DNA of 64,000 nt, taken from the NCBI RefSeq assembly GCF_003610535.1, contig NZ_RAPN01000001.1, forward strand, positions 682,001-746,000, written 5' to 3'. Under the pieces are notes generated by a model. The model was not told where the DNA came from and ran no database searches. It saw only the letters and a program-made list of their open reading frames with translations. Below, in pieces: positions 36 to 22,154 of the stretch; position 1 is the stretch's first letter; every line of letters starts with the position of its first letter. The DNA comes from Mangrovibacterium diazotrophicum. GTDB taxonomy: Bacteria; Bacteroidota; Bacteroidia; Bacteroidales; Prolixibacteraceae. Made by a program: the position numbers and the translations under genes.

Positions 36-1463
36 CTAAACCTGCTTTAATACTTCAGGTCTTTCGTGATAAATCTTCACAATCAGCTCGCCGAACAACG
101 TGTTAGCCCAGGCAAACCAGCTACGGGTAAAGTTTGTCGCATCGTCCATGTGGAAGGTTTCGTGCATGAAACCGGTTCCGGCGTGCGTTTTAATCAGCGT
201 TTCCAGGCAATGTTTAATCTCTTCACTGTCTTCTGAAGTCATGGCACGCATTACAATACTCATTGGCCATATCATTTCAGAACCAACGTGCGGCCCACCG
301 ATTCCCTCGCCTGCAGTTCCTTTGAAGTACCAGGGATTAGCATCGCTCAAAACAAGCTTACGGGTATTTTGGTACAAAGGATCTTCAATTTTCAAAGCTC
401 CCAGGTAAGGCAGTGCCAACAAGCTCGGGATGTTCGCATCGTCCATGAATAGTTGGTTACCAAAACCATCTACTTCAAACGCCAACACTTTACCCAAACC
501 TTCACGCGTTGCTACTGCGTACTTTTCGATTGCTGCGGCGACTTCTTTCCGTAATGATTCAGCTTCGGCAGCTAAAGCAGCGTCGTTGTAAATTGTGCGC
601 GAAATTTCGGCCATGTAGCCTAAAACCGTCACTGCAAAATAGTTCGACGGGATCAGGAACGGTAAAACTGTCGCATCATCGGAAGGGCGGAATGAGGACA
701 CGATGAGGCCCACCGGCTTAACCGGGTTCCCATAGCCGCCACAACACAATGAATCGGTTGGTTTAGGTGTGTTCCGGGTGAAATAATAATCACCTTTATC
801 GTTTTTCCGTTGCTGATCTTTAAAGGTGTCTAAAACAGAACGGAAGACTTTATGCCATTCTTTAGTGAAGCAAGCCGTATTGCCGGTGGTTTTCCAGTAG
901 TGATACAACAAACGAACCGGGTAACACAGGGAATCGATTTCCCATTTGCGTTCGTGCAATTCCGGTTTCATTTCGGTATTATCCGTATCCCACTCGCTTC
1001 CGGTAGCTTCTTTATTAAATGCGTTTGCGTAAGGATCAATTAAAATACATTCGGCCTGGCGATTCAGTACTCCCTGGAACAGCTCGTCAAGGTCCTTGTC
1101 TTTCGTTACCAAAGGTAGATAAGGCCAAACCTGGGCTGTTGAGTCGCGTAACCACATGGCGTGAATATCACCAGTAATTACGAATGTATCCGGCTTTCCG
1201 TCAACAACTGAAAAGTCAACAGTTGTATCCAGTGTATTCGGGAAACAGTTTTCGAACATCCAGGCCAATTCGGGGTTGGCAATTTCCTTTTTCACCTCGG
1301 CGATTGTTTTCTCAACTGCTTTGCTGGTAAAATGGCGTTTGCCTACAGGTGGACGCTGGCTCACAAATTCGGCTTTCGCCGCATGTGCCGCGTTCCAAAC
1401 TGAACCGGTCAAAATGCCGGCCACCGCTAACGAATTGTATCTTAAAAAGTCTCTTCTTTCCAT
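36..1463 (-). CDS. GH125 exo-alpha-1,6-mannosidase (DUF1237 family)
   Basis: This is a 475-residue exported protein of glycoside hydrolase family 125, whose members remove alpha-1,6-linked mannose from the non-reducing end of N-glycan cores and mannans. The family is recognised from the MWLRDSTAQVWPY motif near residue 103, the IDPYANAFN segment, the CCGGYGNPV stretch and the C-terminal GTGFMHETFHMDDATNFTR region. The N-terminus (ERRDFLRYN, then a hydrophobic stretch) looks like a twin-arginine signal. The start ATG is at 1461-1463. It is the last gene of a leftward group with the transglutaminase-fold, GH20 and NagB-fusion genes, from which it is separated by 178 bp containing a stable hairpin. 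GH125 together with the GH92 of the divergent arm suggests mannose removal from an N-glycan-like substrate. The family call is firm; the exact linkage is inferred. Confidence 0.9.
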   Translation of the reverse strand: MERRDFLRYNSLAVAGILTGSVWNAAHAAKAEFVSQRPPVGKRHFTSKAVEKTIAEVKKEIANPELAWMFENCFPNTLDTTVDFSVVDGKPDTFVITGDIHAMWLRDSTAQVWPYLPLVTKDKDLDELFQGVLNRQAECILIDPYANAFNKEATGSEWDTDNTEMKPELHERKWEIDSLCYPVRLLYHYWKTTGNTACFTKEWHKVFRSVLDTFKDQQRKNDKGDYYFTRNTPKPTDSLCCGGYGNPVKPVGLIVSSFRPSDDATVLPFLIPSNYFAVTVLGYMAEISRTIYNDAALAAEAESLRKEVAAAIEKYAVATREGLGKVLAFEVDGFGNQLFMDDANIPSLLALPYLGALKIEDPLYQNTRKLVLSDANPWYFKGTAGEGIGGPHVGSEMIWPMSIVMRAMTSEDSEEIKHCLETLIKTHAGTGFMHETFHMDDATNFTRSWFAWANTLFGELIVKIYHERPEVLKQV

Positions 1464-1641: not shown

Positions 1642-4308
1642 TTATGGTTGGCAGCAGCTTTCAGAACCCGCCATCGTCATGGCAGGAATGACTTTCAATA
1701 GCTGCTCACCGATTCCGATTTTATAACCGGAGGAGAACAAAAACACTTGGCCGCTGGCGTCAGTTAAAATCACCAACGGCAATTTACTTTTCACATCTTC
1801 ACCAAAATTCTTCATCAGCGCCTGCAACACATTGTTGTCTTTGTCGAAACCACTGATGTAATTTTTCGGCAGTTGATAGCTGTTCAGCACAGCTCCCAGC
1901 TGCGGACGATCTTCGGCGGTTAAAAACACGAACTCACCTGTCCAGGCATTGAAATGTTCGAGATAGTCGCCCAAGTCGTTCAAAATATGTTTTGATGTTT
2001 CTTTGTTAGGATCAAGAAGGGCCAGCACCATATTCTTGCCGCCGGCCACTTGATCCAACGAAACAACCATCTTATCGTCTAACTTTGAAATATTCAATTG
2101 GCTGAACTCCAATTTCGCAATTGCTTTCGGAGCATCGATTGACTGGCGCAATGTTACTGTCAACGTCTTTGTTTTACCCGCTTCAATCGTAAAGAAGTCG
2201 CAGCTGTTCAGCACCGAACCATCTTCCAAACGGTTACCGGTAACCAGGTAGTAATCTCCTGCCTCCAAATCCAATTCACCAAACTCAGTTACCTTCTTGG
2301 TGAACGGATATTGAAGGGTGTGGTAATTGCCATCAATCAATTTGCCAATTGTAAAATGTATCATGTACTGCGGCTCAATCGGGTTGTCGCCGTTTACCAG
2401 AATCAATTTTCCGGTTTCTGGCACCGCAGGCATATTTTCAGAAAACTCAGCACGGATCCACTCCCCGTCTTTCCAGAACTCAGGCAACTCGGTTGCAGGG
2501 TTCAGGCGGGCAGGAATACCCAGTGCACGACATGTGGCAACAAAGAAGAAATTGCGGGACTCGGTATCCGAAACGCGCAGATTGTAAACCGCTGTCGGGC
2601 TCAAATCGGTGCGCGAGTGCATGTTTGCCATGTCGTCAATCGTAATATTTTGCTTGATCCATTCAGTCAGTTTTTGCGGATCTTTTACAAATTCATCTTT
2701 TTCTGCAGCGAAAGATTCCTGCAGCGACTTGCGCCAGGTGCGCAACATCTCGTTCAACACCCGCGGAGCCAAAACGTAGTCGACAAAAATCTCTTCAGGT
2801 AACTTCGTATCGTGAATCGTGTTCTGTAAATGGGCGCTCAGGATTGATGCTTTGGTGTCGCTGAAATCTTTGTCCGAAATTCCTCTCAACAAATCAAGCA
2901 CATGCGTATCTTTTGTATTCTCACGCAAATAAGCTTCAATTTCCGGCCAGTTTCCGTAGCTCAGGTGAATAGCTTTCACAACCGGATCTTCGTCCAGTCC
3001 CAATTCTTTAGCCAAAGCTTTGCTCCAGTCATCAGTTTTAAATGTCTCGATGTAGCAAGCCCGGATTGAATCTTCCAGCGCCAAACGTTTCTCATTCACA
3101 GTTTTTTCAGTCGCTGTCAACTGAGTGGTGTCAGTCACAACGTGTGGCGGAACAAAGTCAAAATCGAAATGCTTTCCATTCAATTCTTCATTTGCTAAAA
3201 CCAGGTTCACGGTGTCAACTTGTGAAATTGAAACGCGTTTGAAATCGATTTTTTTACCTTGGCTGGCCCAAACAATGATATCCCCTAAGCCCATTGAAAG
3301 AGAAGTCTCTCCTTCTGCGTTTGTGTATTGTGTGGCGATCGGAAAATATTCAGCGTAATTATACAATTGGTACTCAACTTTTGCATTCTCAGCAGGCGTT
3401 CCGTCAGCGTTTTTCACGTCAACATACAATTTTTTAACGCGTGCATAGTTTGAAGTGACATTCAGTTCGGTAAAACGATCTTCGTGGTTGATCACTTCCT
3501 CAGGACCAAAATATTTACCGTAGGCACGGGTGTGCATCAAAATAGCTCGGGTTGAAGGCTCGGTAAACCAGCCCATATTCAGGCGAGCATCCGGTTCACA
3601 AGCACCAAGGTATTTCCAAACGCCGTCAACCCAAACTTCAACCCAGGCGTGGTTGTCGTCCGAGTGCGCCCAGCGCGGTGTGTAAACCTGGCGGGCAGGA
3701 ATACCCGCTGTTCGTAAGGCAGCAACCGTAAAGGTTGACATTTCGCCGCAACGGCCAAAAGCTTTGCGAATAGTGCTCAGCGGAGCGCTGGTGCGGATAT
3801 CCGTCCCACGGTACACCACTTTCTCGTGGCACCAGTGATTGACCTCCAGTGCGGCCTGCTCCATGCTTGTTATATTTTGAACACGTGCTTTGATCTCGTC
3901 ATACATCGCAATGCGGAACGAATCCAGGTTTTCATTGTTGATACGAACCGGCAATACAAAGTGAAGGAATAAATCTTCAGGAACAGTTTTTCCCCAAGCC
4001 ATGTCCTCACGAGTTTGCAAGCTTTTACGTGCATTTGTCAGAAAGAAATCGGCTGGTAGATCGCCTAAGTCACTCAAAGGCATATAGGCGTACAAATACT
4101 CCATCGCCTGACGTTCATCATCCGTCAACGGCTGATCGAAAACGTCCCACACGTGGATGTTGCTGTTGGCTGTCAGTTTTTTCTGAGCCTCCAACATGTG
4201 ACTAATATCTTTTAATTGCTCCGGGTTACTGATCAGTTGTTCCTTGTGACTGCAAGAAAATCCAATCAGGGCAACGAGAGCTAATATGATCGAGTTTCGA
4301 ATATTCAT
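1642..4308 (-). CDS. transglutaminase-fold lipoprotein, possible glycoprotein amidase or protease
   Basis: This 888-residue protein has a lipoprotein signal (LVALIGFSC, Cys19), so it is likely membrane-anchored outside the cytoplasm. A transglutaminase-like core spans about residues 140-245, with the probable nucleophile in GRCGEMSTF (Cys187), the histidine in NHAWVEVW (His220) and a GACEPD segment (236-240). A second, degenerate copy lies around residues 560-650 (ATCRALGIPARL), where the aligned cysteine is threonine and no HxW motif follows. The region between (about 290-350) looks like a carboxypeptidase-regulatory beta-sandwich, and the C-terminus resembles a thioredoxin-like segment. Eukaryotic peptide:N-glycanases share this fold and the RCGE context, but the position of their catalytic Asp is Gly here, so Glu238 or Asp240 would have to serve. 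It ends 11 bp from GH20 in the same operon. Family known as uncharacterised transglutaminase-like; function is inference. Confidence 0.8.
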   Translation of the reverse strand: MNIRNSIILALVALIGFSCSHKEQLISNPEQLKDISHMLEAQKKLTANSNIHVWDVFDQPLTDDERQAMEYLYAYMPLSDLGDLPADFFLTNARKSLQTREDMAWGKTVPEDLFLHFVLPVRINNENLDSFRIAMYDEIKARVQNITSMEQAALEVNHWCHEKVVYRGTDIRTSAPLSTIRKAFGRCGEMSTFTVAALRTAGIPARQVYTPRWAHSDDNHAWVEVWVDGVWKYLGACEPDARLNMGWFTEPSTRAILMHTRAYGKYFGPEEVINHEDRFTELNVTSNYARVKKLYVDVKNADGTPAENAKVEYQLYNYAEYFPIATQYTNAEGETSLSMGLGDIIVWASQGKKIDFKRVSISQVDTVNLVLANEELNGKHFDFDFVPPHVVTDTTQLTATEKTVNEKRLALEDSIRACYIETFKTDDWSKALAKELGLDEDPVVKAIHLSYGNWPEIEAYLRENTKDTHVLDLLRGISDKDFSDTKASILSAHLQNTIHDTKLPEEIFVDYVLAPRVLNEMLRTWRKSLQESFAAEKDEFVKDPQKLTEWIKQNITIDDMANMHSRTDLSPTAVYNLRVSDTESRNFFFVATCRALGIPARLNPATELPEFWKDGEWIRAEFSENMPAVPETGKLILVNGDNPIEPQYMIHFTIGKLIDGNYHTLQYPFTKKVTEFGELDLEAGDYYLVTGNRLEDGSVLNSCDFFTIEAGKTKTLTVTLRQSIDAPKAIAKLEFSQLNISKLDDKMVVSLDQVAGGKNMVLALLDPNKETSKHILNDLGDYLEHFNAWTGEFVFLTAEDRPQLGAVLNSYQLPKNYISGFDKDNNVLQALMKNFGEDVKSKLPLVILTDASGQVFLFSSGYKIGIGEQLLKVIPAMTMAGSESCCQP

Positions 4309-4319
4309 CTTTGGTTTGA

Positions 4320-6605
4320 TTAATGTTTTACGAGTTCCGCAGGTAATTTACTCATTTCACCATCGCCTTGTTTTACTTCAAGGTCGAGGGAGTACCCGCC
4401 ACCGCCGTCAAAGTAGCCCACATAAATTGGGTAATAGCCTTTTTTCAGTGCAATTTGACCAAACTTGACGGTTGGTCCGTGGTAGCCGTCGTGATCAACA
4501 ACCAGGCTGTCGGCGATAAATAGCTGGCTTCCGTCATCGGATGACAGCGAGAATGTGTAAACAGTCGTTTCGGAAGCGTAAAAATAGCCAGACAACGACA
4601 GTGCGAAAAGACCTTCACGCGCTTCTTTCGGGAATTCAACACCACTCACAACACCTGTGCTCTCTGGTTTCAGTTCTTTCATTTGCCCCACGCGGCTAAT
4701 CGCTTTTTCGTAATATGCATATTTCAATCCGGGTTCCAATTTCGTTGTATCCACGTCGAACGCATCAATCGGAGCGGCTTTTTCAAACAAAGCTGTTTTA
4801 ATCGGCCCGTGGCGACCGTCCTTCATGAAAATGGCAGCTTTCAATGTTGTTGTTGTTGAAACGCTGAGCGGTTCGGTATAAATTGGTGATTCAGGAGTTG
4901 GCTCGCTGCCATCCAGTGTATAATGCATGGTTGCGAACGGCCATGAATTTGTCAAATCAACTTTGGCCGAATCCATGAAAATCATCTTATTGAAAATACC
5001 TTGGGGAGTCGGAATATGGAAATTATACCCGGTATCAGTCAACCAGTCAAGGAACGGTTCCAAACGGTTGATAAAATCAGCCTCATTGCGCGATTCTTTT
5101 GGTGACCAGAGCACCTCGCTCAGTGCTGTCATACGTGGCAATGCGCGGTACTCAACCATCTCTCCGGTTGGCATCCACTCCGACCACATGTTACCCTGAG
5201 CACCCAGTACATACTTGCTTTCTTCTGCAGTCAATTCTGCCGGAACAGGCTCGTAGTTGTACACTTTGCTCAGCGTAATAAGGCCGTTAAATGCCAATGG
5301 TTCTAAATCTTTATCAGGGCTTTGGTAATAATCGAAATAGCAATAATCAACGGGGGTCATAATTACATCGTGTCCCATTTGGGCCGACTTGATCCCTCCG
5401 GACTCGCCTCTCCACGACATTACTGTCGCATTTTTGGCCAAGCCACCTTCGAGAATTTCATCCCAGCCAATCATTGCCCGGCCTTTTGAAACCAGGAAAT
5501 CGTCGAGTTGCTGGATGAAATAACTTTGCAGTCCGTGCTCGTCCTTTAAATCTTTTTCTTTGATACGCTTCTGACACAGCGGGCACTTCTCCCACTCTGC
5601 TTTCCACGCTTCATCACCACCAATGTGGATATATTTGGATGGAAACAAGTCCATCACTTCTGTCAATACATTTTTATAAAATTCGATAACCGAATCTTTA
5701 CCGCCGCAAACAATGCTGATCTCGGCTTTTCCGCCTGAAGCAACGCCGATTTGGGCATCGCGGCACGAAAGTTCCGGGTAAGCCGCAATAGCTGCAGCCG
5801 AATGTCCCGGAATATCAATCTCGGGAATTACGGTAATGCCACGCTCTGCGGCGTAGGCAACCACATCTTTAATTTGTTCTTGAGTATAAAAACCACCGTA
5901 AGTCGCTTTTTCACCCGGTTTCTGAGCTGGACGCTCATTCCAGGGCAAATCTTCGTGATCTACGCGCCACGCTCCTACTTCGGTTAGTTTGGGGTATTTC
6001 TTGATCTCGATCCGCCACCCCTGGTCATCAGACAAGTGCCAGTGGAAGGTGTTCATTTTGTGCATGGCAATCAGGTCGATGTACTTTTTCACAAAATCAA
6101 CTCCAAAGAAATGACGGCTTACGTCCAGGTGCATTCCCCGGTAGGCAAACCGGGGATAATCATCAATCGATACCGTCGGAATTACCAGACCATTATCGGT
6201 CTGGCTACCTTCTTCAAGTATCTGTAATAAACTCTGAATTCCGTGAATAACTCCATTTTTCGTTTTCCCCGCTAAAACAATCTTATCACCAATTGTGAGT
6301 TTATAACCTTCTTCCTCAGTGATGGTCTCATCTAATTTTAGTTCTACCTTCACACCCGACTCACTTGGAGCAAGCCAGATTGCAGGTGTTAACTTTTGCA
6401 TTTGCGCCATCAGGTAGTCTGAAGCGAATGCCAAATCTGAATCAGAAGTTTCAATCCGGACACCTTTGTCGATGACCAAACTCTTTCCGGTCGCTGTTAA
6501 CGAAACCGGCTTGGGGATAATCTTTATTTCAGTTGGTTTTACTGATGGCTGGCATGCTGCAAAAAGCAGCATGACCACCAGCAAAAAAATGGGGTATATT
6601 TTCAT
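4320..6605 (-). CDS. GH20 beta-N-acetylhexosaminidase lipoprotein with PA14 domain
   Basis: This 761-residue lipoprotein (MLLFAAC, Cys18) hydrolyses terminal beta-linked GlcNAc or GalNAc. An N-terminal GH20b-like domain covers about residues 25-150 and the GH20 barrel follows (HWHLSDDQGWRIEIKKYPKL near 188, PEIDIPGHS near 261). The catalytic Asp-Glu pair is in IHIGGDEAW (Asp331, Glu332). A chitobiase-type C-terminal segment (YTLDGSEPTPESP) follows, and the last ~120 residues form a PA14-like carbohydrate-binding domain (SLSSDDGSQLFIADSLVVDH). It starts 45 bp after the NagB-fusion gene and ends 11 bp before the transglutaminase-fold gene, so they are almost certainly co-transcribed. Together with the downstream GlcNAc-phosphate enzyme this supplies and channels GlcNAc. 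The family is certain; the linkage preference is not. Confidence 0.95.
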   Translation of the reverse strand: MKIYPIFLLVVMLLFAACQPSVKPTEIKIIPKPVSLTATGKSLVIDKGVRIETSDSDLAFASDYLMAQMQKLTPAIWLAPSESGVKVELKLDETITEEEGYKLTIGDKIVLAGKTKNGVIHGIQSLLQILEEGSQTDNGLVIPTVSIDDYPRFAYRGMHLDVSRHFFGVDFVKKYIDLIAMHKMNTFHWHLSDDQGWRIEIKKYPKLTEVGAWRVDHEDLPWNERPAQKPGEKATYGGFYTQEQIKDVVAYAAERGITVIPEIDIPGHSAAAIAAYPELSCRDAQIGVASGGKAEISIVCGGKDSVIEFYKNVLTEVMDLFPSKYIHIGGDEAWKAEWEKCPLCQKRIKEKDLKDEHGLQSYFIQQLDDFLVSKGRAMIGWDEILEGGLAKNATVMSWRGESGGIKSAQMGHDVIMTPVDYCYFDYYQSPDKDLEPLAFNGLITLSKVYNYEPVPAELTAEESKYVLGAQGNMWSEWMPTGEMVEYRALPRMTALSEVLWSPKESRNEADFINRLEPFLDWLTDTGYNFHIPTPQGIFNKMIFMDSAKVDLTNSWPFATMHYTLDGSEPTPESPIYTEPLSVSTTTTLKAAIFMKDGRHGPIKTALFEKAAPIDAFDVDTTKLEPGLKYAYYEKAISRVGQMKELKPESTGVVSGVEFPKEAREGLFALSLSGYFYASETTVYTFSLSSDDGSQLFIADSLVVDHDGYHGPTVKFGQIALKKGYYPIYVGYFDGGGGYSLDLEVKQGDGEMSKLPAELVKH

Positions 6606-6650: not shown

Positions 6651-8597
6651 CTACTTCAGAAAAGATTCTTCGTCGTCGAACGGATAGCGTACAAACGCTT
6701 CAATCGCCTCGTATTCTGTCAGACCCAATTGGTCATAGATCTCCGCCGTTGTACGGTTACGTTCTTCAGCACGTTGCCAGAATTCACGCTTGTCTTCACC
6801 CGGGAAAACAGGCTCGTCTTTTTGTGACTGGTGTTTGAAGATCGCTTTGCGTTTGCGGTGTAATTCTCCCGGGCTAATTGGCACAGCCATTTCGATGTCT
6901 TCAACATCCCATTCCTGCCATGCACCTCGGTACAACCACATGTAGCAATCGTCCAACCATTTGTCGCCTTCAGCGCGCATTTTACGAATTGCTTTGAAGA
7001 TAATCTGCAAACAAACCTCGTGAGTTCCGTGCGGGTCCTGCAAGTCACCGGCAGCAAAAATCTGGTGAGGTTGAATTTTACGCAGCAAGTCTACTACAAT
7101 TTGCACATCAGCATCCGAAGCCGGGCTCTTCTCAACTTGTCCGGTTTCGTAGAAAGGCAAGTTCAGGAAGTGTACATTTTCTTCTTTCACACCACTATAG
7201 CGACATCCGGCAGCAGCTTCACCTACGCGAATCAAACCTTTTACAGCCTTCACATACGGCGTATCAATTTGTCCGGGTTGTTTATTTTTCAGGAATTCTC
7301 TCAGTTCAGCGTTTGCTTTTGCAATCTCCGGAGAATCTACTTTTTGATTGTCCAACAGGTCAACAACGAATTGAGAAAAACGCAGCGCGTCATCGTCGAA
7401 AACGGCAATGTTACCTGAAGTTTGGTAAGCAACGTGCACATCGTGTCCCTGATCAGCCAAACGGATCAGTGTTCCACCCATCGAGATCACGTCGTCGTCC
7501 GGGTGCGGGCTGAATACAATTGAGCGTTTGATAGAAGGCTCCGGGCGTTCAGGGCGAGTTTTTTCGTAAGCACCTGGCTTACCACCCGGCCATCCGGTAA
7601 TTGTATCGCGCAGCTGGCTGAAAATTTTAATATTTAGGTCGTAAGCACCACCGTACTCAACAAGCAAGTCACGCAAACCTGATTTTTTATAATCGTCGTC
7701 GGTCAATTTCAAAATTGGTTTGTCCAATTTTTGGCTCAACCAAATCACAGCTCTTTTCACCATTTTCGGTGTCCATTCAACCACACCAACCAACCAAGGA
7801 GCTTTTGTGCGGGTGAATTCTGTTGTTGCAGGCGCATCCAAATAAACAGATACGTCTTTGTGCAATTGCAGGAACGATGCAGGAACATCCGGGCTAACCG
7901 GGCCTTCGATCATTTCTTTCAGAATTGCTGATTTACCTTTACCCCAACCTGCCAAAACAATTTTCTTAGCTTTCAGGATTGTGCCAACACCCATTGTGAT
8001 TGCGCGGTGAGGAACCAACTTCTCATCACCAAAATCTTTGATGGCGTCAGAAATTGTGATTGAATCCAGTTTCACCAAACGAGTGGTTGAATTCACAGTA
8101 GATCCAGGTTCGTTAAAACCTATGTGGCCCGAACGACCGATACCCAATACCTGGATATCAATACCACCTACTTCGTCAATCTTGTCTTCGTAAGCGTTAC
8201 AGAATGCAGACACATCCTCAATCTTCAACGAACCGTCAGGAATGTTTACATTCTCCGGCAAAATATCGATGTGATTGAATAAATGTTTGTGCATAAAATA
8301 CACATAACTTTGTGCATCCTCAGGGCTCATCGGATAATATTCGTCCAAATTGAAAGTGATCACGTTTTTAAAACTTAACCCTTCTTCTTTGTGCAGACGA
8401 ACGAGCTCCTGGTAAATTTTTATCGGAGAAGAACCGGTAGCCAGACCCAACACAGCCATTTTTCCTTCAGCTTGTTTCTTTTTAATTATATCGGCTATAA
8501 TTCCGGCCATAATTTTGGCCCCAACCAACTGATTCTCCACCACATTTATCGGGAGCTTTTCAATTGTTTTCTCAATGTAACTTAGGCTGTAATTCAT
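6651..8597 (-). CDS. nagB: glucosamine-6-phosphate deaminase fused to a PIG-L-type deacetylase
   Basis: A cytoplasmic two-domain protein of 648 residues. The N-terminal ~265 residues are a NagB-type deaminase/isomerase that converts glucosamine-6-phosphate to fructose-6-phosphate and ammonia: GLATGSSP substrate loop, FNLDEYYPM (Asp85) and GRSGHIGFNEPGS (His158, Glu163); Ser replaces the Asp found in the E. coli GNDGH motif. After a linker, residues ~355-560 form a PIG-L/LmbE-type zinc deacetylase domain with the SPHPDDD metal motif (His365, Asp367, Asp368) and a DPHGTHE motif (His523). No separate nagA is present, so the second domain might deacetylate a GlcNAc derivative, which is inference. 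The ATG at 8597 is chosen; the frame extends 9 bp upstream only to a TTG. It is the first gene of the leftward operon, preceded by a -7 box and two operator-like sites. Confidence 0.9.
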   Translation of the reverse strand: MNYSLSYIEKTIEKLPINVVENQLVGAKIMAGIIADIIKKKQAEGKMAVLGLATGSSPIKIYQELVRLHKEEGLSFKNVITFNLDEYYPMSPEDAQSYVYFMHKHLFNHIDILPENVNIPDGSLKIEDVSAFCNAYEDKIDEVGGIDIQVLGIGRSGHIGFNEPGSTVNSTTRLVKLDSITISDAIKDFGDEKLVPHRAITMGVGTILKAKKIVLAGWGKGKSAILKEMIEGPVSPDVPASFLQLHKDVSVYLDAPATTEFTRTKAPWLVGVVEWTPKMVKRAVIWLSQKLDKPILKLTDDDYKKSGLRDLLVEYGGAYDLNIKIFSQLRDTITGWPGGKPGAYEKTRPERPEPSIKRSIVFSPHPDDDVISMGGTLIRLADQGHDVHVAYQTSGNIAVFDDDALRFSQFVVDLLDNQKVDSPEIAKANAELREFLKNKQPGQIDTPYVKAVKGLIRVGEAAAGCRYSGVKEENVHFLNLPFYETGQVEKSPASDADVQIVVDLLRKIQPHQIFAAGDLQDPHGTHEVCLQIIFKAIRKMRAEGDKWLDDCYMWLYRGAWQEWDVEDIEMAVPISPGELHRKRKAIFKHQSQKDEPVFPGEDKREFWQRAEERNRTTAEIYDQLGLTEYEAIEAFVRYPFDDEESFLK

Positions 8598-8652
8598 AAC
8601 TGTCAATATTTTATTCTACTATATCGCGAAGCAATTGTTATTTAGACTTTTT

Positions 8653-9678: not shown

Positions 9679-12600
9679 ATGAAGAAGTTACCCATTTTAT
9701 TTTTAATCTTCTCTCTAATGGCAGCTGCTCCGGCAATTGCTCAGAAAATTACAGGGACTGTTATATCGGGCGGCGACAAAGAGCCGCTACCGGGTGTAAC
9801 CGTACTTGAAAAAGGGACAACCAATGGGATTACAACCGACTTTGACGGAAACTTTGAGTTTAACCTCAAAGATGCTTCCGATCAGGTGCTGGTTTTTTCT
9901 TTTGTTGGTTATCAGACTCAGGAAGTCCCGGTAAACGGACAAACTAAAATTGATGTCGTACTACAAGAAAGCGACATTGCGGTGGATGAAGTAGTTGTCA
10001 CCGCTCTCGGTATCAAGCGAGACAAAAAAGCGCTGAGCTATTCTTCTCAGACCATTTCTGACGAAGATATCGCTAATACACAAGGCGTTAATTTTGCATC
10101 GAGTTTGAGTGGAAAAACAGCCGGTGTTGAACTCAGAGAAAGTAGCGCGGGCGCGGGAGGTTCTACGAAAATTACGCTTCGGGGAACACGAAATATTACC
10201 TCCAGCAACCAACCCCTTTTTGTAATTGACGGTATCCCGATGGCTAACTATCAAACGTCGGATGCCAGCGGATTCTATGGTGGACGCGACAGTGGTGATG
10301 GTTTGTCAAACATCAACCAGGATGACATCGAGAGCATGACTATTTTGAGAGGCGCCAACGCCGCTGCCCTTTACGGTAGCCAAGGCTCGAACGGTGTGAT
10401 TTTAATCACCACTAAAAAAGGGAAAAACGGTACAACAAAAGCAACTTTCAGCTCAAATACCAGCATAACACAAGCGTTTGACCTGCCTGATCTTCAATAC
10501 AAATACGGCCAAACTTCTGAGGGCTCAGAATCAAGTTGGGGCGAAGAAGGCGACTACGACGATTCGTTTGTGAAAGATTTTTTCCAAACAGGTGTAACAA
10601 CCAAAAACGGTATAACGCTTAGTGGTGGTAACGACAAAACAACGACCTACTTCTCTTACTCAAATGCTTACTCCGAAGGTGTTGTACCAACCAACACATT
10701 CAAGAAAAACAACCTGACATTCAAACAGTCTTCGAAATTCTTCGATGATAAATTGACGGTGACTTCGGATGTAATGTTGACACAACAGAAAGTACACAAC
10801 AAGATTCTGAACGGTTACTACTGGAACCCGTTGCTTGGTTTATACAACTTCCCCCGCAGTTTGGACTTCGACGACTACAAAAACAATTATAAAGTGTGGG
10901 ATTCGGATCGTAACATGTGGACTCAAAACTGGGCGATATCCGGAAACAGCGAAGGAGAGATGAACCCCTACTGGATTTTGTATAAAGACCAAAATGATGA
11001 AAAGACAAACCGTATCATCGGTAACGTTTCTCTTGACTATCAATTGGCCGAAGGGTTAAACCTATCTGCCCGCGGAAGCTACGACTACACCCGTCAAATC
11101 TACGAATTGAAAGCGAATGCCGGTTCCAGTTCTGTATTGGTATCCGACAACGGACGCTATATTTACTCTAACCTGGAAAGCTATCAGGCATATGGAGACT
11201 TGATGTTGACATACGACCACAGCCTTTCAGATGACCTTGATTTACACGCAGTAATCGGAACAAGTTACCAAAACAAAACAATTGGCGATGGAGTCGCTAT
11301 TGACAGTGACACATACGGTCTTACCCTGGCCAATGTCTTTACAATTCAAAACATCTCTTCAATTAAAGCTTTCTCTTCAGGAAATGTGATGGATTCCCGC
11401 CTGATCAAAGAATCGGCTTTTGCCAATATTTCATTGGGCTACAATAACATGCTTTACCTGGATCTTTCAGGTCGTAATGACTGGTCATCTTCTTTGGCTT
11501 ACACCGGCAACTTGTCTTATTTCTACCCATCGGTAGGTTTAAGTGCGATTTTGAGCCAAATGATTCAATTGCCCGAAGCAATCAGCTTCGCAAAGGTGCG
11601 CGGATCATATGCCCGTGTAAGTAACGAAATCCCTGCTTTCAAAACCAACCCGGTTAATGGTGTAGATGTGGACAACCTGATTTCCCGCAACTCAGTGACG
11701 CCGTTTACCGATTTGAAACCAGAGATGCAGGACAGCTACGAATTCGGTTTGGAAATGAGATTCCTGAATAACCGCGTGGGACTTGATGCTTCTGTTTACC
11801 AAATTGATACGAAAGACCAATACCTGGAACTGGACGCACCCAGTGGTTCATACTACGACACATACTATGTAAACGCAGGCCACATCCGCAGTAAAGGTTT
11901 GGAAATTACATTATCGACAACTCCGGTGAAAGGCAAGAAATTCTCTTGGGATTCAAACGTCAACTTCACGACCAACACCAATAAAATCATGAAATTGAGT
12001 GATGACCTGGATGGTTACTACACCATGGGTGGTGGCGGCGAAGGCTACGACATGTACGTTGTTGAAGGCGGAAAAATGGGCGACATCTACGTTTACCAAT
12101 ACGCCCGCGACGATGATGGTAACATTATTTTGGATGACGACACCTATGTTCCAACGAAGAACACAACAAAACGCAAAGTTGGAAACGCTTCTCCAAAATG
12201 GATGATGGGCTGGACAAACAGCTTTAGCTACAAAAAATTCAACATGAGTTTTCAGGTTGATGGAAAATTCGGTGGAAATTTTGTTTCAATGACCAATGCT
12301 TATTTGGATGCCAATGGTGTATCGCAAGCTACTGCCGACGCTCGCGAAGCAGGAGGTGTAAAAGTAAAAGGTGTTTTATCTGACGGTTCGGCTTACGAAG
12401 GTACCGTTGACGCACAAACCTATTACACAAGTACTGCCGGACGTGCAGGTATTATGGAGCAATATGTTTACGGTTCTACAAACGTACGTCTGCGCCAAGT
12501 ATCACTGGGTTACAACTTCGATCTTCAAAAATACACCAACCTGATAAACAACATTAATTTATCTCTGGTGGGCTCTAATCTTTTCTTCTTCTACAACGAA

Positions 12601-12714
12601 GCACCAACTGACCCGGATATTACCATCAGTACAGGTAACGGTTCTCAAGGTGTAGAAAACTTTGGCGCACCGACTTCAAGATCTTTAGGGTTCAACCTTC
12701 AAGTTAACTTTTAA
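9679..12714 (+). CDS. SusC-like TonB-dependent outer-membrane transporter
   Basis: A 1011-residue outer-membrane oligosaccharide importer of the SusC/RagA family. After the signal peptide (cleavage near AIAQ, residue 22) comes a carboxypeptidase-regulatory-like domain (ITGTVISGGDKEPLPGVTV to about residue 100), a TonB-box region (VDEVVVTALGIKRDKKALSY), the plug (LSGKTAGVEL, ITLRGTRN, PLFVIDGIPM, LRGANAAALYGSQGSNGVIL) and a beta-barrel ending in the terminal aromatic residue (LGFNLQVNF). The CNA-free length is normal for the family. It is followed after 12 bp by its SusD partner. Transport of glycan fragments released at the surface by this locus is the expected role. Candidate promoters and operator-like sites lie 180-320 bp upstream. 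Confidence 0.96.
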   Translation: MKKLPILFLIFSLMAAAPAIAQKITGTVISGGDKEPLPGVTVLEKGTTNGITTDFDGNFEFNLKDASDQVLVFSFVGYQTQEVPVNGQTKIDVVLQESDIAVDEVVVTALGIKRDKKALSYSSQTISDEDIANTQGVNFASSLSGKTAGVELRESSAGAGGSTKITLRGTRNITSSNQPLFVIDGIPMANYQTSDASGFYGGRDSGDGLSNINQDDIESMTILRGANAAALYGSQGSNGVILITTKKGKNGTTKATFSSNTSITQAFDLPDLQYKYGQTSEGSESSWGEEGDYDDSFVKDFFQTGVTTKNGITLSGGNDKTTTYFSYSNAYSEGVVPTNTFKKNNLTFKQSSKFFDDKLTVTSDVMLTQQKVHNKILNGYYWNPLLGLYNFPRSLDFDDYKNNYKVWDSDRNMWTQNWAISGNSEGEMNPYWILYKDQNDEKTNRIIGNVSLDYQLAEGLNLSARGSYDYTRQIYELKANAGSSSVLVSDNGRYIYSNLESYQAYGDLMLTYDHSLSDDLDLHAVIGTSYQNKTIGDGVAIDSDTYGLTLANVFTIQNISSIKAFSSGNVMDSRLIKESAFANISLGYNNMLYLDLSGRNDWSSSLAYTGNLSYFYPSVGLSAILSQMIQLPEAISFAKVRGSYARVSNEIPAFKTNPVNGVDVDNLISRNSVTPFTDLKPEMQDSYEFGLEMRFLNNRVGLDASVYQIDTKDQYLELDAPSGSYYDTYYVNAGHIRSKGLEITLSTTPVKGKKFSWDSNVNFTTNTNKIMKLSDDLDGYYTMGGGGEGYDMYVVEGGKMGDIYVYQYARDDDGNIILDDDTYVPTKNTTKRKVGNASPKWMMGWTNSFSYKKFNMSFQVDGKFGGNFVSMTNAYLDANGVSQATADAREAGGVKVKGVLSDGSAYEGTVDAQTYYTSTAGRAGIMEQYVYGSTNVRLRQVSLGYNFDLQKYTNLINNINLSLVGSNLFFFYNEAPTDPDITISTGNGSQGVENFGAPTSRSLGFNLQVNF

Positions 12715-12726
12715 ACTGTCTTAACA

Positions 12727-14310
12727 ATGAGAAATACTTTATATATAAGTGCAATTTTTGCTTTGCTTCTGAACATGGTTGGTTGTACCAGCAATTTCGA
12801 TTCTGAAAATACCGATCCATATGGTGTAACCGAAGAGCAAGCGGCAATCGATTTCGTAAACATTGGCGGGTACTTAACGACTATGCAAAAGTATATTTAC
12901 AATGTGACTACCGGCTTGCAAACTGAGCAAAACTTAACGGGAGATGCATTTGCTCAATACATGGTTCCGCCTACCCCATTCCAGTCGAACCGGAATAACG
13001 TAACCTATAACTTTGTGTGGTACAGCCAGCAATGGGATATTACCTACAGTAATGAAATGTCGAATCTCTCCTTGATCGTAAACAAGTACAATGTCGACAC
13101 CGAATACCCGAACTTCTACGCATGGGGACAGGTTTTGAAAATTTTCGCCATGCAACGTGTGACCGACAACTATGGTCCGATTATCTACAGCGATTATGGT
13201 GCGGAATCGGCTCCATATAGCTACGACTCACAAAAAGACGTATACTACGCCTTCTTCGACGAATTGGATGCTGCAATTGATACCTTGACAACATATGCCG
13301 ACGCTGGAAGTACTGCATTCGAAAAATTCGACGCAGCTTACGGCGGTGATGTTGCCGAATGGGTAAAAGCAGCAAACTCACTGCGTCTTCGTTTAGCCAT
13401 GCGCTTAGCGAATGTTGATCCTACAAAAGCCCAGGAAGAAGCAGAAGCTGCTATAAGTCAGGAATATGGTGTAATGGAAACAAACGACGACAACTTCATG
13501 GTTGATTTGGGTAGTTCGGTTCACCCTCTGTGGTATTTCAGTGATAGCTGGAGCGACTGCCGGATGTGTGCTACTGTAGAATCAATCATGGGAGGTTACA
13601 GCGATCCACGTTTGCCAATGTACTTTGAAACTGCAACAGACGGTGATTTGGCGGATGGTACCTATAAAGGTATTCGTCAGGGTATCGCTATCGATTCCAA
13701 ATCAACCTATGTAGACTTCTCAGGTATTAGCTCAACGATAACCGGGTCTACAACCGCTCAAATTATGACAGCAGCTGAAGTGAGTTTCTTGCGCGCTGAA
13801 GGCTCATTGCGCGGCTGGAGCATGGGCGACCTGAGTGCAGAAGAATACTACAATCAAGGTATCCAACAGTCCTTCGAACAATATGGACTGAGCAGCTATT
13901 CAACCTACGAGGACGACGAAACCAGCACATTTGCAGACTATGTTGATCCAAAAAACTCGGATAACAGCTTCTCTGCGTCAAGCGACATCACCATTAAATG
14001 GGATGCTTCTGAAAGCAACGAACGCAACCTGGAGCGTATTATAACTCAAAAATGGATTGCCTTGTTCCCCGACGGACAAGAAGCCTGGTCTGAATTCAGA
14101 CGCACAGGTTATCCTAAATTATTACCGGTTGTCGTTAACTACAGTAGCGGAAAAATCAGCACCGATGAATTCGTAAGAAGAACTCCGTATCCGGATGCAG
14201 AATACACTTCTGATGCAGAAGGTGTGGCAGGTGGTGTAACACTGCTTGGCGGTGTAGACACCGGCGGTACCCGCGTTTGGTGGGATACAGGCACGGGCAC
14301 AAACTTTTGA
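12727..14310 (+). CDS. SusD-like surface glycan-binding lipoprotein
   Basis: A 527-residue SusD/RagB-family lipoprotein (MVGCTSN, Cys20) that caps the SusC barrel and binds glycan at the cell surface. The SusD-like_2 type of fold is suggested by an N-terminal helical region (EQAAIDFVNIGGYLTTMQ), the YAWGQVLKIFAMQRVTDNYG helix pair (near residue 123), TPR-like helices (AEWVKAANSLRLRLAMRLAN) and the C-terminal NLERIITQKWIALFPDGQEA motif with an RRTGYP segment. It is 12 bp downstream of susC and followed by a strong terminator. No separate SusE/F-type surface binding protein follows, so surface recognition may rest on this protein and the lipoprotein enzymes. Confidence 0.94.
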   Translation: MRNTLYISAIFALLLNMVGCTSNFDSENTDPYGVTEEQAAIDFVNIGGYLTTMQKYIYNVTTGLQTEQNLTGDAFAQYMVPPTPFQSNRNNVTYNFVWYSQQWDITYSNEMSNLSLIVNKYNVDTEYPNFYAWGQVLKIFAMQRVTDNYGPIIYSDYGAESAPYSYDSQKDVYYAFFDELDAAIDTLTTYADAGSTAFEKFDAAYGGDVAEWVKAANSLRLRLAMRLANVDPTKAQEEAEAAISQEYGVMETNDDNFMVDLGSSVHPLWYFSDSWSDCRMCATVESIMGGYSDPRLPMYFETATDGDLADGTYKGIRQGIAIDSKSTYVDFSGISSTITGSTTAQIMTAAEVSFLRAEGSLRGWSMGDLSAEEYYNQGIQQSFEQYGLSSYSTYEDDETSTFADYVDPKNSDNSFSASSDITIKWDASESNERNLERIITQKWIALFPDGQEAWSEFRRTGYPKLLPVVVNYSSGKISTDEFVRRTPYPDAEYTSDAEGVAGGVTLLGGVDTGGTRVWWDTGTGTNF

Positions 14311-15015: not shown

Positions 15016-16458
15016 ATGAAACAATTCATTGTTCTGGCTTCAATTTTACTCGTCTTAGTTTCCGGCCTTAAAGCTCAGGAACTAGGCATCCACCCACAGT
15101 CGCACGAATATGAGTGGCCCAAAGATCAAAAAGTATTGGAAAAGCTGGATCAATGGCAAGACCTCAAATTTGGAATGATCATCCACTGGGGCTTGTACGC
15201 AGTTCCGGGAATTATCGAATCGTGGGAACTTTGTTCTGAAGACTGGATCAATCGCCCCGACAGCATGACCTACAACGAATTCAAACAGTGGTACTGGGGA
15301 TTGAAAGATCAGTTCAACCCGGTTAACTTCGACCCGGACCAATGGGCACAAGCTGCTTCCGATGCCGGTATGAAATACCTGGTTTTCACAACGAAGCACC
15401 ACGACGGATTCAACATGTTCGACACTCAACAAACAGATTATAAAATCACAAATGGTCTGTTTGCCAGCAATCCAAAAGCAAATGTTGCCAAATATGTTTT
15501 CGATGCCTTTCGTGCTAAAGGGTTCTGGATTGGTGCTTACTATTCAAAACCAGACTGGCACAACCAGGATTTCTGGTGGGACAAATACGCCACTCCCAAC
15601 CGTAACGTGAACTATGATATCCGTAAGTTTCCGGAGAAATGGGAAAACTTCAAAACATTTGCCTACAACCAAATTGGCGAGTTGATGCACGATTACGGCA
15701 AAGTGGATATTTTGTGGTTAGATGGCGGTTGGGTACGTCCAAAAGAAACCGTTAACGAGGAAGTTCTTTCATGGGGAGCGCCAATCCCTGATTGGGATCA
15801 GCAGATTGACATGCCGAAAATCGCAACCATGGCTCGCGAAGCACAACCCGGTTTGCTAATTGTCGACCGTACGGTGCATGGCCCTTACGAGAACTACCAA
15901 ACTCCGGAGCGCGCCATTCCGGAAAAACAACTTCCCTACCCTTGGGAAAGCTGTATCACACTCGGCAACAACTGGGGCTTTGTTCCAAACGAACATTATA
16001 AAACTCCGGCAACCGTGGTTCACGACTTAGCAGAGATTGTTGCAAAAGGCGGTGCCCTGCTTCTTGGCGTTGGCCCAAAACCTGATGGTACCCTCGATCC
16101 GGAAGCCGTGAAGCTGATGGAAGAAATCGGGGCCTGGATGGACGCCAACGGTAAAGCAATCTACAACACCCGCATCACTCCGGTTTACGAAGATGGCAAC
16201 GTCTATTTCACCGCCAGCAAAGACGCGAAAACAACTTACGCGATCGCCTGCCTGGACGAAAAATCAGACGTACCTGCTACCGTGAAATGGAAAGGTAACA
16301 TTCCGGCGAAAGGAAGCAAAATGACTCTGCTTTCAGCTAATAAAACCGTAAAATGGAAAGTTGTCAACGATGAAGTAGTTGTTTCAATTCCTTCTTCATT
16401 CCGTTCAAAAAATTCAAGTTATCCGGCTTTGAGCTTCGAATTCAAATCGGGTAAATAA
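15016..16458 (+). CDS. GH29 alpha-L-fucosidase
   Basis: A 480-residue secreted enzyme (signal peptide to about GLKA, residue 20) that removes alpha-L-fucose by a retaining mechanism. GH29 features are KFGMIIHWGLYAVPG (51-65), FTTKHHDGFNMF (124-135) and the nucleophile in VDILWLDGGW (Asp236). A short beta-sandwich C-terminus (residues ~385-480) completes the usual two-domain layout. It opens a rightward operon directly behind the operator/-7 box at 14926-14948. The length and the C-terminal domain resemble the broad-specificity class A enzymes, but substrate cannot be fixed from sequence. A second, divergent GH29 follows, suggesting that two fucose linkages are present in the target glycan. 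Confidence 0.94.
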   Translation: MKQFIVLASILLVLVSGLKAQELGIHPQSHEYEWPKDQKVLEKLDQWQDLKFGMIIHWGLYAVPGIIESWELCSEDWINRPDSMTYNEFKQWYWGLKDQFNPVNFDPDQWAQAASDAGMKYLVFTTKHHDGFNMFDTQQTDYKITNGLFASNPKANVAKYVFDAFRAKGFWIGAYYSKPDWHNQDFWWDKYATPNRNVNYDIRKFPEKWENFKTFAYNQIGELMHDYGKVDILWLDGGWVRPKETVNEEVLSWGAPIPDWDQQIDMPKIATMAREAQPGLLIVDRTVHGPYENYQTPERAIPEKQLPYPWESCITLGNNWGFVPNEHYKTPATVVHDLAEIVAKGGALLLGVGPKPDGTLDPEAVKLMEEIGAWMDANGKAIYNTRITPVYEDGNVYFTASKDAKTTYAIACLDEKSDVPATVKWKGNIPAKGSKMTLLSANKTVKWKVVNDEVVVSIPSSFRSKNSSYPALSFEFKSGK

Positions 16459-16615: not shown

Positions 16616-18070
16616 ATGAAAAAAGTAATTCTAAATAGTTTAAGCATTCTATTCCTGGCTTTGAGCATTAGCTCGTGCCAAACAAAAGTTCCTGCACCGG
16701 CCGCTGTTGGACCGGTTCCGGATGCGCGTCAACTGGCTTGGCACGACATGGAAATGAATGCCTTCATTCACTTTACAATCAATACATTTACTGATAAAGA
16801 GTGGGGTTATGGCGATGAATCTCCTGAGCTTTTCAACCCAACCAACTTCGATGCAGAACAATGGGTTTCTGTCCTGAAAGAGGCCGGTTTCAAAGGGGTG
16901 ATCCTCACGTGTAAACACCATGACGGGTTCTGTCTTTGGCCATCGGAATACACTGATCACGACATTGCTGAAAGCCCCTTCGAAGAGGGAAAAGGCGATA
17001 TCGTAAAAGCTGTGTCGGATGCTTGTCACAAATTTGGTTTGGAATTCGGTATTTACATGTCTCCTTGGGACAGAAACCGTGCTGACTACGGCCAACCATC
17101 CTACGTGGAATACTACCGCAACCAATTGAAAGAACTGTTCACCAACTACGGACCTGTTTTCGAAATGTGGTTCGACGGTGCAAACGGCGGAGACGGGTAT
17201 TACGGTGGTGCCAACGAAATGCGCAAAATCGAACGCAGAACATATTACGACTGGCCAACGACATTGTCCATGGTACACGAAATTCAACCTCAAGTTTTGT
17301 TTTTCAGCGATGGCGGACCGGATTTGCGTTGGGTTGGTAACGAACAAGGCTACGTAAACGAAACCAACTGGAGCACGATCACGACAGATACCTTGTATGC
17401 CGGAAAATCGGGCATTGAAGACTTGCTGGGAACCGGTTCTATTGATGGTAAAGAATGGTGTCCTGCCGAAGTAAACACGTCTATTCGTCCGGGATGGTTC
17501 TATCATGCTTCGGAAGACGACAAAGTGAAATCTCCGGAAGTACTGTTCAAATTATACATGGAATCTGTTGGTCGCGGATCAACGATGCTGTTGAATATCC
17601 CTCCGGATCGCAGAGGTTTATTCCACGAAAATGATGTTGCTTCCCTACAAGGATTCCACAAATTGCTGGAAGAACGCTTCGGAAACGACCTGGCGAAAAA
17701 TGCTAAAGTAATTGCTTCGGAAACACGCGGCGATGCCAGCGAATACGGTGCAGCCAATGTAGTCGATGGCAACAAAGAAAGCTATTGGGCAACCAATGAC
17801 GGTACAACCAGCGGAAGCCTGGAAATCGATCTGGGTTCAGCACAGGAAATTCACTACGTACAATTAGACGAGTACATCCAACTGGGACAACGCGTGAAAA
17901 AATTCAAAGTTGAAGCTGAAGTTGACGGTGCCTGGAAAGAAATTGCGAACGGAACAACTGTTGGCTACAAACGTATTTTGGCAGTAGACCCTGTTACTGC
18001 TTCTAAAATCAAGATTACGATCGAAGATGCGAAAGCATGCCCTGTAATTTCTACTGTTAGCCTCTACTAA
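16616..18070 (+). CDS. GH29 alpha-L-fucosidase lipoprotein with F5/8-type C domain
   Basis: A 484-residue lipoprotein (SISSC, Cys21). The GH29 barrel shows AFIHFTINTFTDKEWGYGDE (49-68), LTCKHHDGFCLWPS (97-110) and the likely nucleophile in FEMWFDGANG (Asp187). The C-terminal ~140 residues form a discoidin/CBM32-like domain (ASEYGAANVVDGNKESYWAT, then GSLEIDLGSAQ). This layout, with FNPTNFDAEQWVSVLKEAGFKG, is typical of class B GH29 enzymes that act on alpha-1,3/1,4 branches of Lewis-type structures, which is family knowledge rather than proof. The GH35 gene follows after 34 bp, so fucose removal could expose a beta-galactose. Co-transcription with the upstream GH29 is likely. Confidence 0.94.
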   Translation: MKKVILNSLSILFLALSISSCQTKVPAPAAVGPVPDARQLAWHDMEMNAFIHFTINTFTDKEWGYGDESPELFNPTNFDAEQWVSVLKEAGFKGVILTCKHHDGFCLWPSEYTDHDIAESPFEEGKGDIVKAVSDACHKFGLEFGIYMSPWDRNRADYGQPSYVEYYRNQLKELFTNYGPVFEMWFDGANGGDGYYGGANEMRKIERRTYYDWPTTLSMVHEIQPQVLFFSDGGPDLRWVGNEQGYVNETNWSTITTDTLYAGKSGIEDLLGTGSIDGKEWCPAEVNTSIRPGWFYHASEDDKVKSPEVLFKLYMESVGRGSTMLLNIPPDRRGLFHENDVASLQGFHKLLEERFGNDLAKNAKVIASETRGDASEYGAANVVDGNKESYWATNDGTTSGSLEIDLGSAQEIHYVQLDEYIQLGQRVKKFKVEAEVDGAWKEIANGTTVGYKRILAVDPVTASKIKITIEDAKACPVISTVSLY

Positions 18071-21083: not shown

Positions 21084-22154
21084 ATGAATAAAAGAGATTT
21101 TTTAAAGACAAGTTTACTGGCCGGCGCAGGTCTGGTTGCAGCGACTAGATGTACGCCTGCACAAAGTGGTAAACCGGAAACCAAATCTGGTTACAAACAC
21201 TGGGTATGGGAAAATCCCAATCTGGAGGATGACGAAAAATCTCTTCAAGATAAATACGAAAAATTTTACAAAGCCGGCATCCGTGGTATGTTTTTCGAGA
21301 ACGACAGCGAAAAACACTTCCGAATTGCCAAGAAAGCAGGCTTGGAAACACACCGTTGGATGTGGACGATGAACCGGGGAGAAAAAGAATTGCGCGAAAA
21401 TCACCCGGATTGGTTTGCGGTTAGCCGCAAAGGCGAATCTTGTGCAACCAACCCACCTTATGTGGGCTATTACCGCTGGTTGTGCCCCTCCAAAACAGAA
21501 ACTCAAAACTACCTGAAAGAACGGGTAACTGAGATTTTGGAAAAAGATTACGTTGATGGCATTCACCTGGACTATGTACGTTATTGCGACGTGATATTAC
21601 CACTGGACTTGTGGAAAAACTACAACATCGTTCAGCAACAGGAATTGCCGGAATACGACTTCTGCTACTGCGAAACCTGTCGTCAGAATTTTCAGGCCGA
21701 GCATGGCGTTGACCCATTGGAACTGCAATACCCGGACGCAAGTCTGTCATGGCGGAATTACCGCTACGATCGTATCACCAACGTGGTAAACCAACTGGCT
21801 GAAATTGCCCACCAGCACAAAAAACAAATCACGGCTGCCGTGTTCCCTACCCCGGAAGTTGCGCGCCGCAATGTGCGCCAGGACTGGACCAACTGGAACC
21901 TCGACGGCGTTTGCCCGATGATTTACCATGGCTTTTACCAGGAGCAAGTGAGTTGGATTGGCGATGCCGTAAAAGAAGGTGTTCACTTCTTGTGCGATCG
22001 TTTCCCACTGTATTCCGGTCTGTTTCTTCCAAACTTTAAAAATATGGATGAATTGAAATCCGGAATTGAATACGCTCTGAACAATGGCGCCGGCGGCGTT
22101 TCATTCTTTGGCGAAGTTAACGATGATGTGCTGTCTGTTATCAGTCAGTTTTAA
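21084..22154 (+). CDS. putative glycosyl hydrolase-like TIM-barrel protein (GHL10/DUF187-like)
   Basis: A 356-residue exported protein (KRDFLKTSLLAGAGLVAAT start, Tat-like although the pair is Lys-Arg). The barrel-like region contains MFFENDSEKHFRIAKKAG, LETHRWMWTMNRGEKEL, GIHLDYVRYCDVILPLDL (near residue 160), a CYCETC cysteine motif, KKQITAAVFPTPEVARRNV and WNLDGVCPMIYHGFYQE. The order of DYVRY and DGVCPMIYH motifs is that of the GHL10/DUF187 family (YngK-like), whose substrates are mostly unknown. Acidic residues in HLDYVRY and GEVNDD are candidate catalytic groups. Tight spacing (6 bp upstream, 33 bp downstream to GH92) places it in the same operon, so it may cleave a linkage the recognised enzymes do not. 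Confidence 0.75.
   Translation: MNKRDFLKTSLLAGAGLVAATRCTPAQSGKPETKSGYKHWVWENPNLEDDEKSLQDKYEKFYKAGIRGMFFENDSEKHFRIAKKAGLETHRWMWTMNRGEKELRENHPDWFAVSRKGESCATNPPYVGYYRWLCPSKTETQNYLKERVTEILEKDYVDGIHLDYVRYCDVILPLDLWKNYNIVQQQELPEYDFCYCETCRQNFQAEHGVDPLELQYPDASLSWRNYRYDRITNVVNQLAEIAHQHKKQITAAVFPTPEVARRNVRQDWTNWNLDGVCPMIYHGFYQEQVSWIGDAVKEGVHFLCDRFPLYSGLFLPNFKNMDELKSGIEYALNNGAGGVSFFGEVNDDVLSVISQF

Follow-up and report, generated by a model that had tools for sequence, protein, structure and literature searches.

A transglutaminase-fold protein family of Bacteroidales that tracks GH92 and may act at the protein end of N-glycoprotein breakdown

The 64,000-nucleotide stretch of Mangrovibacterium diazotrophicum examined here (contig NZ_RAPN01000001.1, positions 682,001 to 746,000; hereafter the window) carries at 1642-4308, on the minus strand, an open reading frame (ORF) of 888 amino acids with an ATG start that encodes a transglutaminase (TG)-fold protein. 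We propose that this protein is a secreted cysteine hydrolase of the TG superfamily, probably lipid-anchored in this species, that acts at the protein end of N-glycoprotein breakdown, and we give this reading a rough probability of 0.45. The family is widespread in its order and unstudied; among the open-licence PMC papers listed, no title or opening of an abstract on it was found. Its N-glycan link holds at the family level, beyond the one window.

This link is seen in the distribution of the family in 295 Bacteroidales genomes, 97 of which have a match at E <= 1e-20. The long form is present in 91 (two of them counted from two pieces, adjacent ORFs in G379 and separate contigs in G453), and the other six (G337, G398, G410, G470, G497, and G579) have only a paralogue with a frame of about 400 amino acids. 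GH92 (E <= 0.001) occurs in 88 of the 91 carriers versus 107 of the 204 non-carriers (Fisher 3e-16), whereas GH43, used as a control, occurs in 45 and 91, respectively (p 0.45). These tests use the looser counts; with the curated cut-off, the GH92 total would fall from 195 to 194 and that of GH43 from 136 to 115. Among 114 genomes representing one per family by printed labels (G295-G408), GH92 is found in 29/30 carriers versus 45/84 non-carriers (p 5e-6) and GH43 in 14/30 versus 32/84 (p 0.52). Since GH92 differs between the groups and GH43 does not, the TG family tracks GH92 rather than a lifestyle of sugar degradation, for which GH43 is the marker. That it is nearly confined to genomes with GH92 points to a place in glycoprotein use that can be tested.

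A class-wide sample containing few Bacteroidales yielded matches in 4 of 295 genomes, all Bacteroidales. Named genomes hold at least 587 confirmed relatives, the best 80 of which include Bacteroides fragilis, Phocaeicola massiliensis, Parabacteroides, and Labilibaculum, together with one titled Candidatus Saccharicenans, which would lie outside the phylum if binned correctly. NCBIfam returned no match for the window protein and holds no model of its own for the family; one of 76 catalytic domains reaches its transglutaminase-related lipoprotein model (E 4.8e-4).

The window protein scores 92.7 bits against Transglut_core (PF01841; curated cut-off 23), far above chance, with the best stretch at residues 141-231. 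In the full-length predicted model (predicted local distance difference test, pLDDT, 92.6), the TG domain is accompanied by a domain of the 3e8v type, a second TG copy, and a thioredoxin-like domain. Because the full-length fold search was dominated by the last of these, the TG domain was modelled and searched by itself. The protein and its parts, all on the minus strand, are:

1642-4308, minus strand: TG-fold protein with putative signal peptide, 888 amino acids (ORF, Pfam, alignment, predicted model)
3445-4227, minus strand: residues 28-288, N-terminal helical region and TG domain with Cys187, His220, Gly235, and Glu238 (Transglut_core, fold matches, model pLDDT 91.7)
3190-3435, minus strand: residues 292-373, 3e8v-type domain (match to a fragment of a B. 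fragilis protein of the same family)
2503-2721, minus strand: residues ~530-602, second TG-core copy (Transglut_core 33.8 bits; internal BLASTP E 6e-06)
1675-2124, minus strand: residues 729-878, thioredoxin-like domain without CXXC

The second TG copy is degenerate, with a Thr aligned to the catalytic Cys and no HAW. Judged from its sequence, the protein is probably secreted: a signal peptide and its lipobox-like GFSC can be read by eye. The lipid anchor claimed in an earlier note on this stretch is credible for the window protein, but it is not a constant of the family, since only 39 of 77 members have a lipobox-like site in a crude scan for the motif (19 lack it and 19 were unscorable). In the thioredoxin-like domain, the CXXC position reads like KEPxKH, and Glu770 and His774 are invariant (76/76), which marks a conserved site.

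Conservation was assessed in an alignment of the window protein with 75 of the 80 named relatives; three short pieces (L038, L050, and L084), one locus with no TG ORF (L107), and one with an uncertain start (L054) were left out. The earlier note had read the motifs correctly: GRCGEMST surrounds Cys187, HAW contains His220, and Gly235, Glu238, and Asp240 follow. Cys187, His220, Gly235, and Glu238 are each present in 76/76 members, as are Glu189, Trp213, Asp217, Trp222, Glu224, Trp231, Cys237, and Trp247. Position 240 varies (E 55, D 16, A 4, K 1), and position 190 is Glu in every member except the window protein, which has Met190. The note had also aligned Gly235, by eye, with the third triad position, an Asp in yeast Png1. 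With Gly in all 76 at this usual place of the third acid of the TG superfamily, the absence of the catalytic Asp is the rule of the family. Of the other TG-core proteins encoded by the same genomes, L214, L217, L218, and L231 keep the Asp, and eight did not fit the motif used. In papain-like enzymes, a third catalytic residue is described as frequent yet not universal, with known variation, in the available text of PMC10318531, whose main text contains neither '3e8v' nor any word starting 'Bacteroid'.

In the mechanism that we envisage, Cys187, at the start of a helix, would be activated by His220 and attack an amide carbonyl, giving an acyl-enzyme that water would release. As Gly235 takes the place of the usual triad Asp throughout the aligned family, catalysis would depend on a Cys-His pair or on a shifted acid, for which the invariant Glu238 and Asp217 are candidates. 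The most likely substrate would be the glycopeptide left as GH29, GH92, GH125, and GH20 trim the glycan. Cleavage may fall at the GlcNAc-Asn amide or at a peptide bond close to the glycosylation site, a choice that sequence cannot decide; if it is a glycopeptidase, the protein would supply the peptide-side activity in N-glycoprotein breakdown. Binding or orienting the substrate may be the task of the other three domains (3e8v-type, degenerate TG, and thioredoxin-like without CXXC).

A separate TG paralogue of 399 amino acids in the same genome (L036:10872-12071; G000:C6), also found in other genomes, is 30% identical over residues 10-397. Its motifs differ (ATCTGLS and NHNWVEV), and it is too short for the later domains.

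The position of the gene between GH20 and GH125, as given in the earlier note, is borne out in location and strand by ORF and Pfam analysis. On the minus strand, the order is NagB-like/PIG-L fusion, GH20, TG gene, and GH125, with gaps of 45, 11, and 178 bp (Pfam 3.9e-124 for GH20 and 6e-171 for GH125). The run continues past GH125, outside the window, with a GH2-family gene (L035:14297-16963); a beta-mannosidase label given to it by eye was dropped, as Pfam finds GH2 with an Ig domain of the exo-beta-glucosaminidase type. Promoter and terminator scans scored at shuffle level. The neighboring features are:

36-1463, minus strand: GH125 alpha-mannosidase, next gene downstream of the TG gene (Pfam)
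4320-6605, minus strand: GH20 beta-hexosaminidase with PA14, next gene upstream (Pfam)
6651-8606, minus strand: glucosamine-6-phosphate deaminase-like/PIG-L (LmbE-like) fusion, PRK02122 (Pfam and NCBIfam)
9679-12714, plus strand: SusC-type receptor, in the divergent arm
12727-14310, plus strand: SusD-like protein
15016-16458 and 16616-18070, plus strand: two GH29 alpha-fucosidases
18105-19955, plus strand: GH35 beta-galactosidase
21084-22154, plus strand: GHL10-type putative glycosyl hydrolase (no PDB sequence match at E 0.01)
22188-24410, plus strand: GH92 alpha-mannosidase
24444-25334 and 25453-27612, plus strand: ROK protein and GH3, respectively

The divergent arm also encodes a CBM9-like protein and an alpha-amylase-type protein. 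The presence together of GH125, GH20, GH92, two GH29, GH35, SusC, and SusD is the family set for an N-glycan utilisation locus, which is a plausible reading of this region; a plant-type glycan is a possible substrate given GH35, GH29, and GH3, if these enzymes have their presumed specificities. The earlier note had argued that the TG protein supplies a release step otherwise missing here. It is true that none of the 29 window ORFs scanned has a Pfam match to GH18, GH85, or PNGase (peptide:N-glycanase). The argument is nevertheless rejected, since the genome encodes a PNGase F-II homologue elsewhere (L212:1480-3246; G000:C1:2075341; PF09113; PDB 4r4x, E 8e-132; N-terminal bowl-type domain), and the step need not be missing. 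A second protein of this genome (L213:928-2856; G000:C1:4084464) matches N-glycanase_C at 40.8 bits (cut-off 25). PF00704 finds no GH18 in the genome; GH85 and GH163 were not searched genome-wide.

Two further observations concern the window itself. The GHL10-type protein had no probe match near the other fetched TG genes and could be an unrecognised endo-acting enzyme. A second glycan locus (30755-63836) contains SusC/SusD, DUF6298, DUF3826, two GH2, GH95, a GH141-type domain, and an esterase-like protein.

To survey gene context, 80 of the 91 long-form carriers were used (11, mostly fragmented or incomplete, were removed by hand before their neighbors were known), and stretches of up to ~20 kb around the TG gene were fetched from the 79 besides the window genome (1.39 Mb in total, many ended by contig ends). 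Neighbors were detected by phmmer with the window genes and their neighbors as probes, with expected counts for CutC and GH92 only. GH92 lies near the TG gene in 8/79 loci versus 1.2 expected (P 3.5e-5), GH20 and GH29 in 7 each, and GH125, GH2, and glycosylasparaginase in one each. At least one of these six is nearby in 17/79 loci, one of them or CutC in 37/79, and neither in 42/79. The 80 named loci, chosen by similarity, have CutC nearby in 24, GH29 in 10, GH92 in 6, GH20 in 5, GH2 in 3, and GH125 in 2; 12 have one of GH92, GH20, GH2, or GH125, and 21 do once GH29 is counted. GH38 is an operon neighbor in L052, L055, and L075. For example, the closest relative in the tree set (L199, 54% identity) has GH92, a BNR-repeat protein, GH29, GH20, and GH29 and then the TG gene, L191 has GH92, GH20, MFS, and TG, and L174 has EamA, MFS, GH20, TG, CutC, and GH2 with a mannosidase Ig domain. 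A quick tree built from 77 members requires 8 changes for the label of glycan genes lacking CutC (shuffled mean 9.6) and 6 for that of glycan genes with CutC (7.7), indicating that these neighborhoods were gained or lost several times. ABC-transporter ATPases recur (20/80 named and 11/79 carrier loci) and were set aside as a large protein class.

Three other features were seen in these loci. A long GH92 form (frames of ~990-1005 amino acids) near CutC or the TG gene (G299:C6, G323:C1, G515:C222, and G505:C25) may represent a separate subgroup of GH92. L160:6509-8287, located between GH29 and the TG gene, encodes a rhamnose-mutarotase-type and nucleotidyltransferase fusion with a weak GHMP-kinase match that may serve fucose salvage. 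On the same strand as a TG homologue, and two genes upstream of it, is an M4 thermolysin-type peptidase that carries a Por secretion tail (L041:5801-9028).

It should be noted that several results weigh against a hydrolase of N-glycoproteins. The triad Asp is absent. The earlier note had held that homologues found mostly away from N-glycan genes would count against its proposal, and 62/79 loci indeed have none of GH92, GH20, GH29, GH125, GH2, or glycosylasparaginase within the fetched stretch, even though GH92 is present in nearly all carrier genomes. GH38 probes matched in 0/79 loci. GH125 was ruled out as a fixed partner (present in 25/80 carriers, adjoining the TG gene only in G000 and G545), as was glycosylasparaginase as a general partner (26/80 carriers). 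The co-occurrence tests were computed without a tree, and GH92 also serves mannan use, according to the available text of PMC10154615. Finally, the commonest neighbor is CutC, found in 28/79 loci versus 0.34 expected and directly adjoining the TG gene in 24, 16 of these on the same strand and <100 bp apart.

This adjacency, with CutC present in 75/80 carriers (counted in carriers alone), is consistent with a main role shared with CutC, of which N-glycan loci would be occasional recruitments. We regard this as unlikely: it leaves the GH92 co-occurrence unexplained, and the only CutC match of the window genome lies away from the TG locus (G000:C1:1678462). CutC ('copper homeostasis') is moreover directly beside GH29 in 5 of the 28 CutC loci, and its adjacency to both the TG gene and GH29 suggests a role in sugar or glycoprotein use here instead of copper; CutC loci include L151, L159, L167, L184, and L192. 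A pairing of CutC with glycosylasparaginase was seen in none of 10 asparaginase loci, which reach only ~1.5 kb on each side. A cysteine peptidase or isopeptidase without glycan recognition, clearing envelope peptides in bacteria whose N-glycan link reflects a shared diet, is somewhat doubtful, given that the family follows GH92 and not GH43. A pseudoenzyme that binds glycoproteins without catalysis, or a transglutaminase that crosslinks proteins, is very improbable, given that Cys187 and His220 are kept in all 76 members.

The earlier note had favored a new PNGase or glycopeptidase, and its TG fold and N-glycan link have held up. A true PNGase of a new bacterial TG-fold type, in which Cys187 would attack the GlcNAc-Asn amide, free the glycan, and convert Asn to Asp, nonetheless seems improbable to us. 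A profile alignment with mouse PNGase spans GRCGE, HxWxE, and (D/G)ACE, but the profile match reaches only E 0.27. In hhalign, a two-sequence PNGase profile is slightly better in E and probability (8.7e-9 and 95.7) than a two-sequence generic bacterial TG profile (9.9e-8 and 94.3) but lower in score (52.5 versus 57.6). The structure comparison that the note had called for gave a confident TG fold; mouse PNGase has the highest identity (20-21%) among the 50 fold matches listed for the TG domain, yet PNGases rank by Z score below transglutaminases and two putative proteases (3isr and 3kd4). Of the D(A/S)CE motif found in both mouse and yeast PNGases, the CE is kept and the Asp is lost. Cys355 and Glu356 of NGLY1 are presumably this CE pair. 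Patient variants Cys355Arg and Glu356Gly are reported in the available text of PMC9102325. Yeast Png1 has the triad C191, H218, and D235 (PMC2791212, in part), and the window family departs from this Cys-His-Asp pattern at Gly235. The PNGase F-II homologue already present in the genome also counts against such an enzyme.

We continue to favor a cysteine hydrolase acting at the protein end of N-glycoproteins. It is a long shot that a secreted class of bacterial TG-fold PNGases, with a Cys-His pair and a glycan-side Glu238 replacing the full triad, exists in about one third of the sampled genomes of the order. No such class appears in the available text of the open-licence PMC papers on N-glycans that were searched, and the available text of a 2023 review of N-glycan carbohydrate-active enzymes (PMC10154615) has no words starting 'peptidase', 'asparaginase', or 'transglutaminase'. 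Should the protein cut GlcNAc-Asn, NGLY1 would have a bacterial counterpart in it, and it would offer a new tool for deglycosylation.

Among the closest known proteins is 3e8v, a possible transglutaminase-family protein of Bacteroides fragilis that belongs to the same family by sequence (residues 292-371, E 3.1e-31); its solved part is an 82-residue proteolytic fragment, and the entry title names no function. Similarity to 3isr (putative cysteine protease, Cytophaga hutchinsonii; 19% identity) and 3kd4 (putative protease, Parabacteroides distasonis; 12%) covers the TG domain only, and both are 'putative' per their entry titles. Transglutaminases 2 and 3 and factor XIII are 13-18% identical to the window TG domain and have the catalytic Asp that this family lacks. 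The TG protein has no PNGase F match in Pfam; PNGase F and F-II differ in having a fold of two eight-stranded beta-sandwiches instead of the TG fold (PMC9102325, in part), and would share the same step with the TG protein if it were a PNGase. Worm PNG-1, according to the available text of PMC8997433, has a thioredoxin domain, and the window protein has a thioredoxin-like one. The eukaryotic cytosolic PNGases (yeast Png1, mouse PNGase, and NGLY1) share with it the TG fold and alignable GRCGE, HxWxE, and xACE segments.
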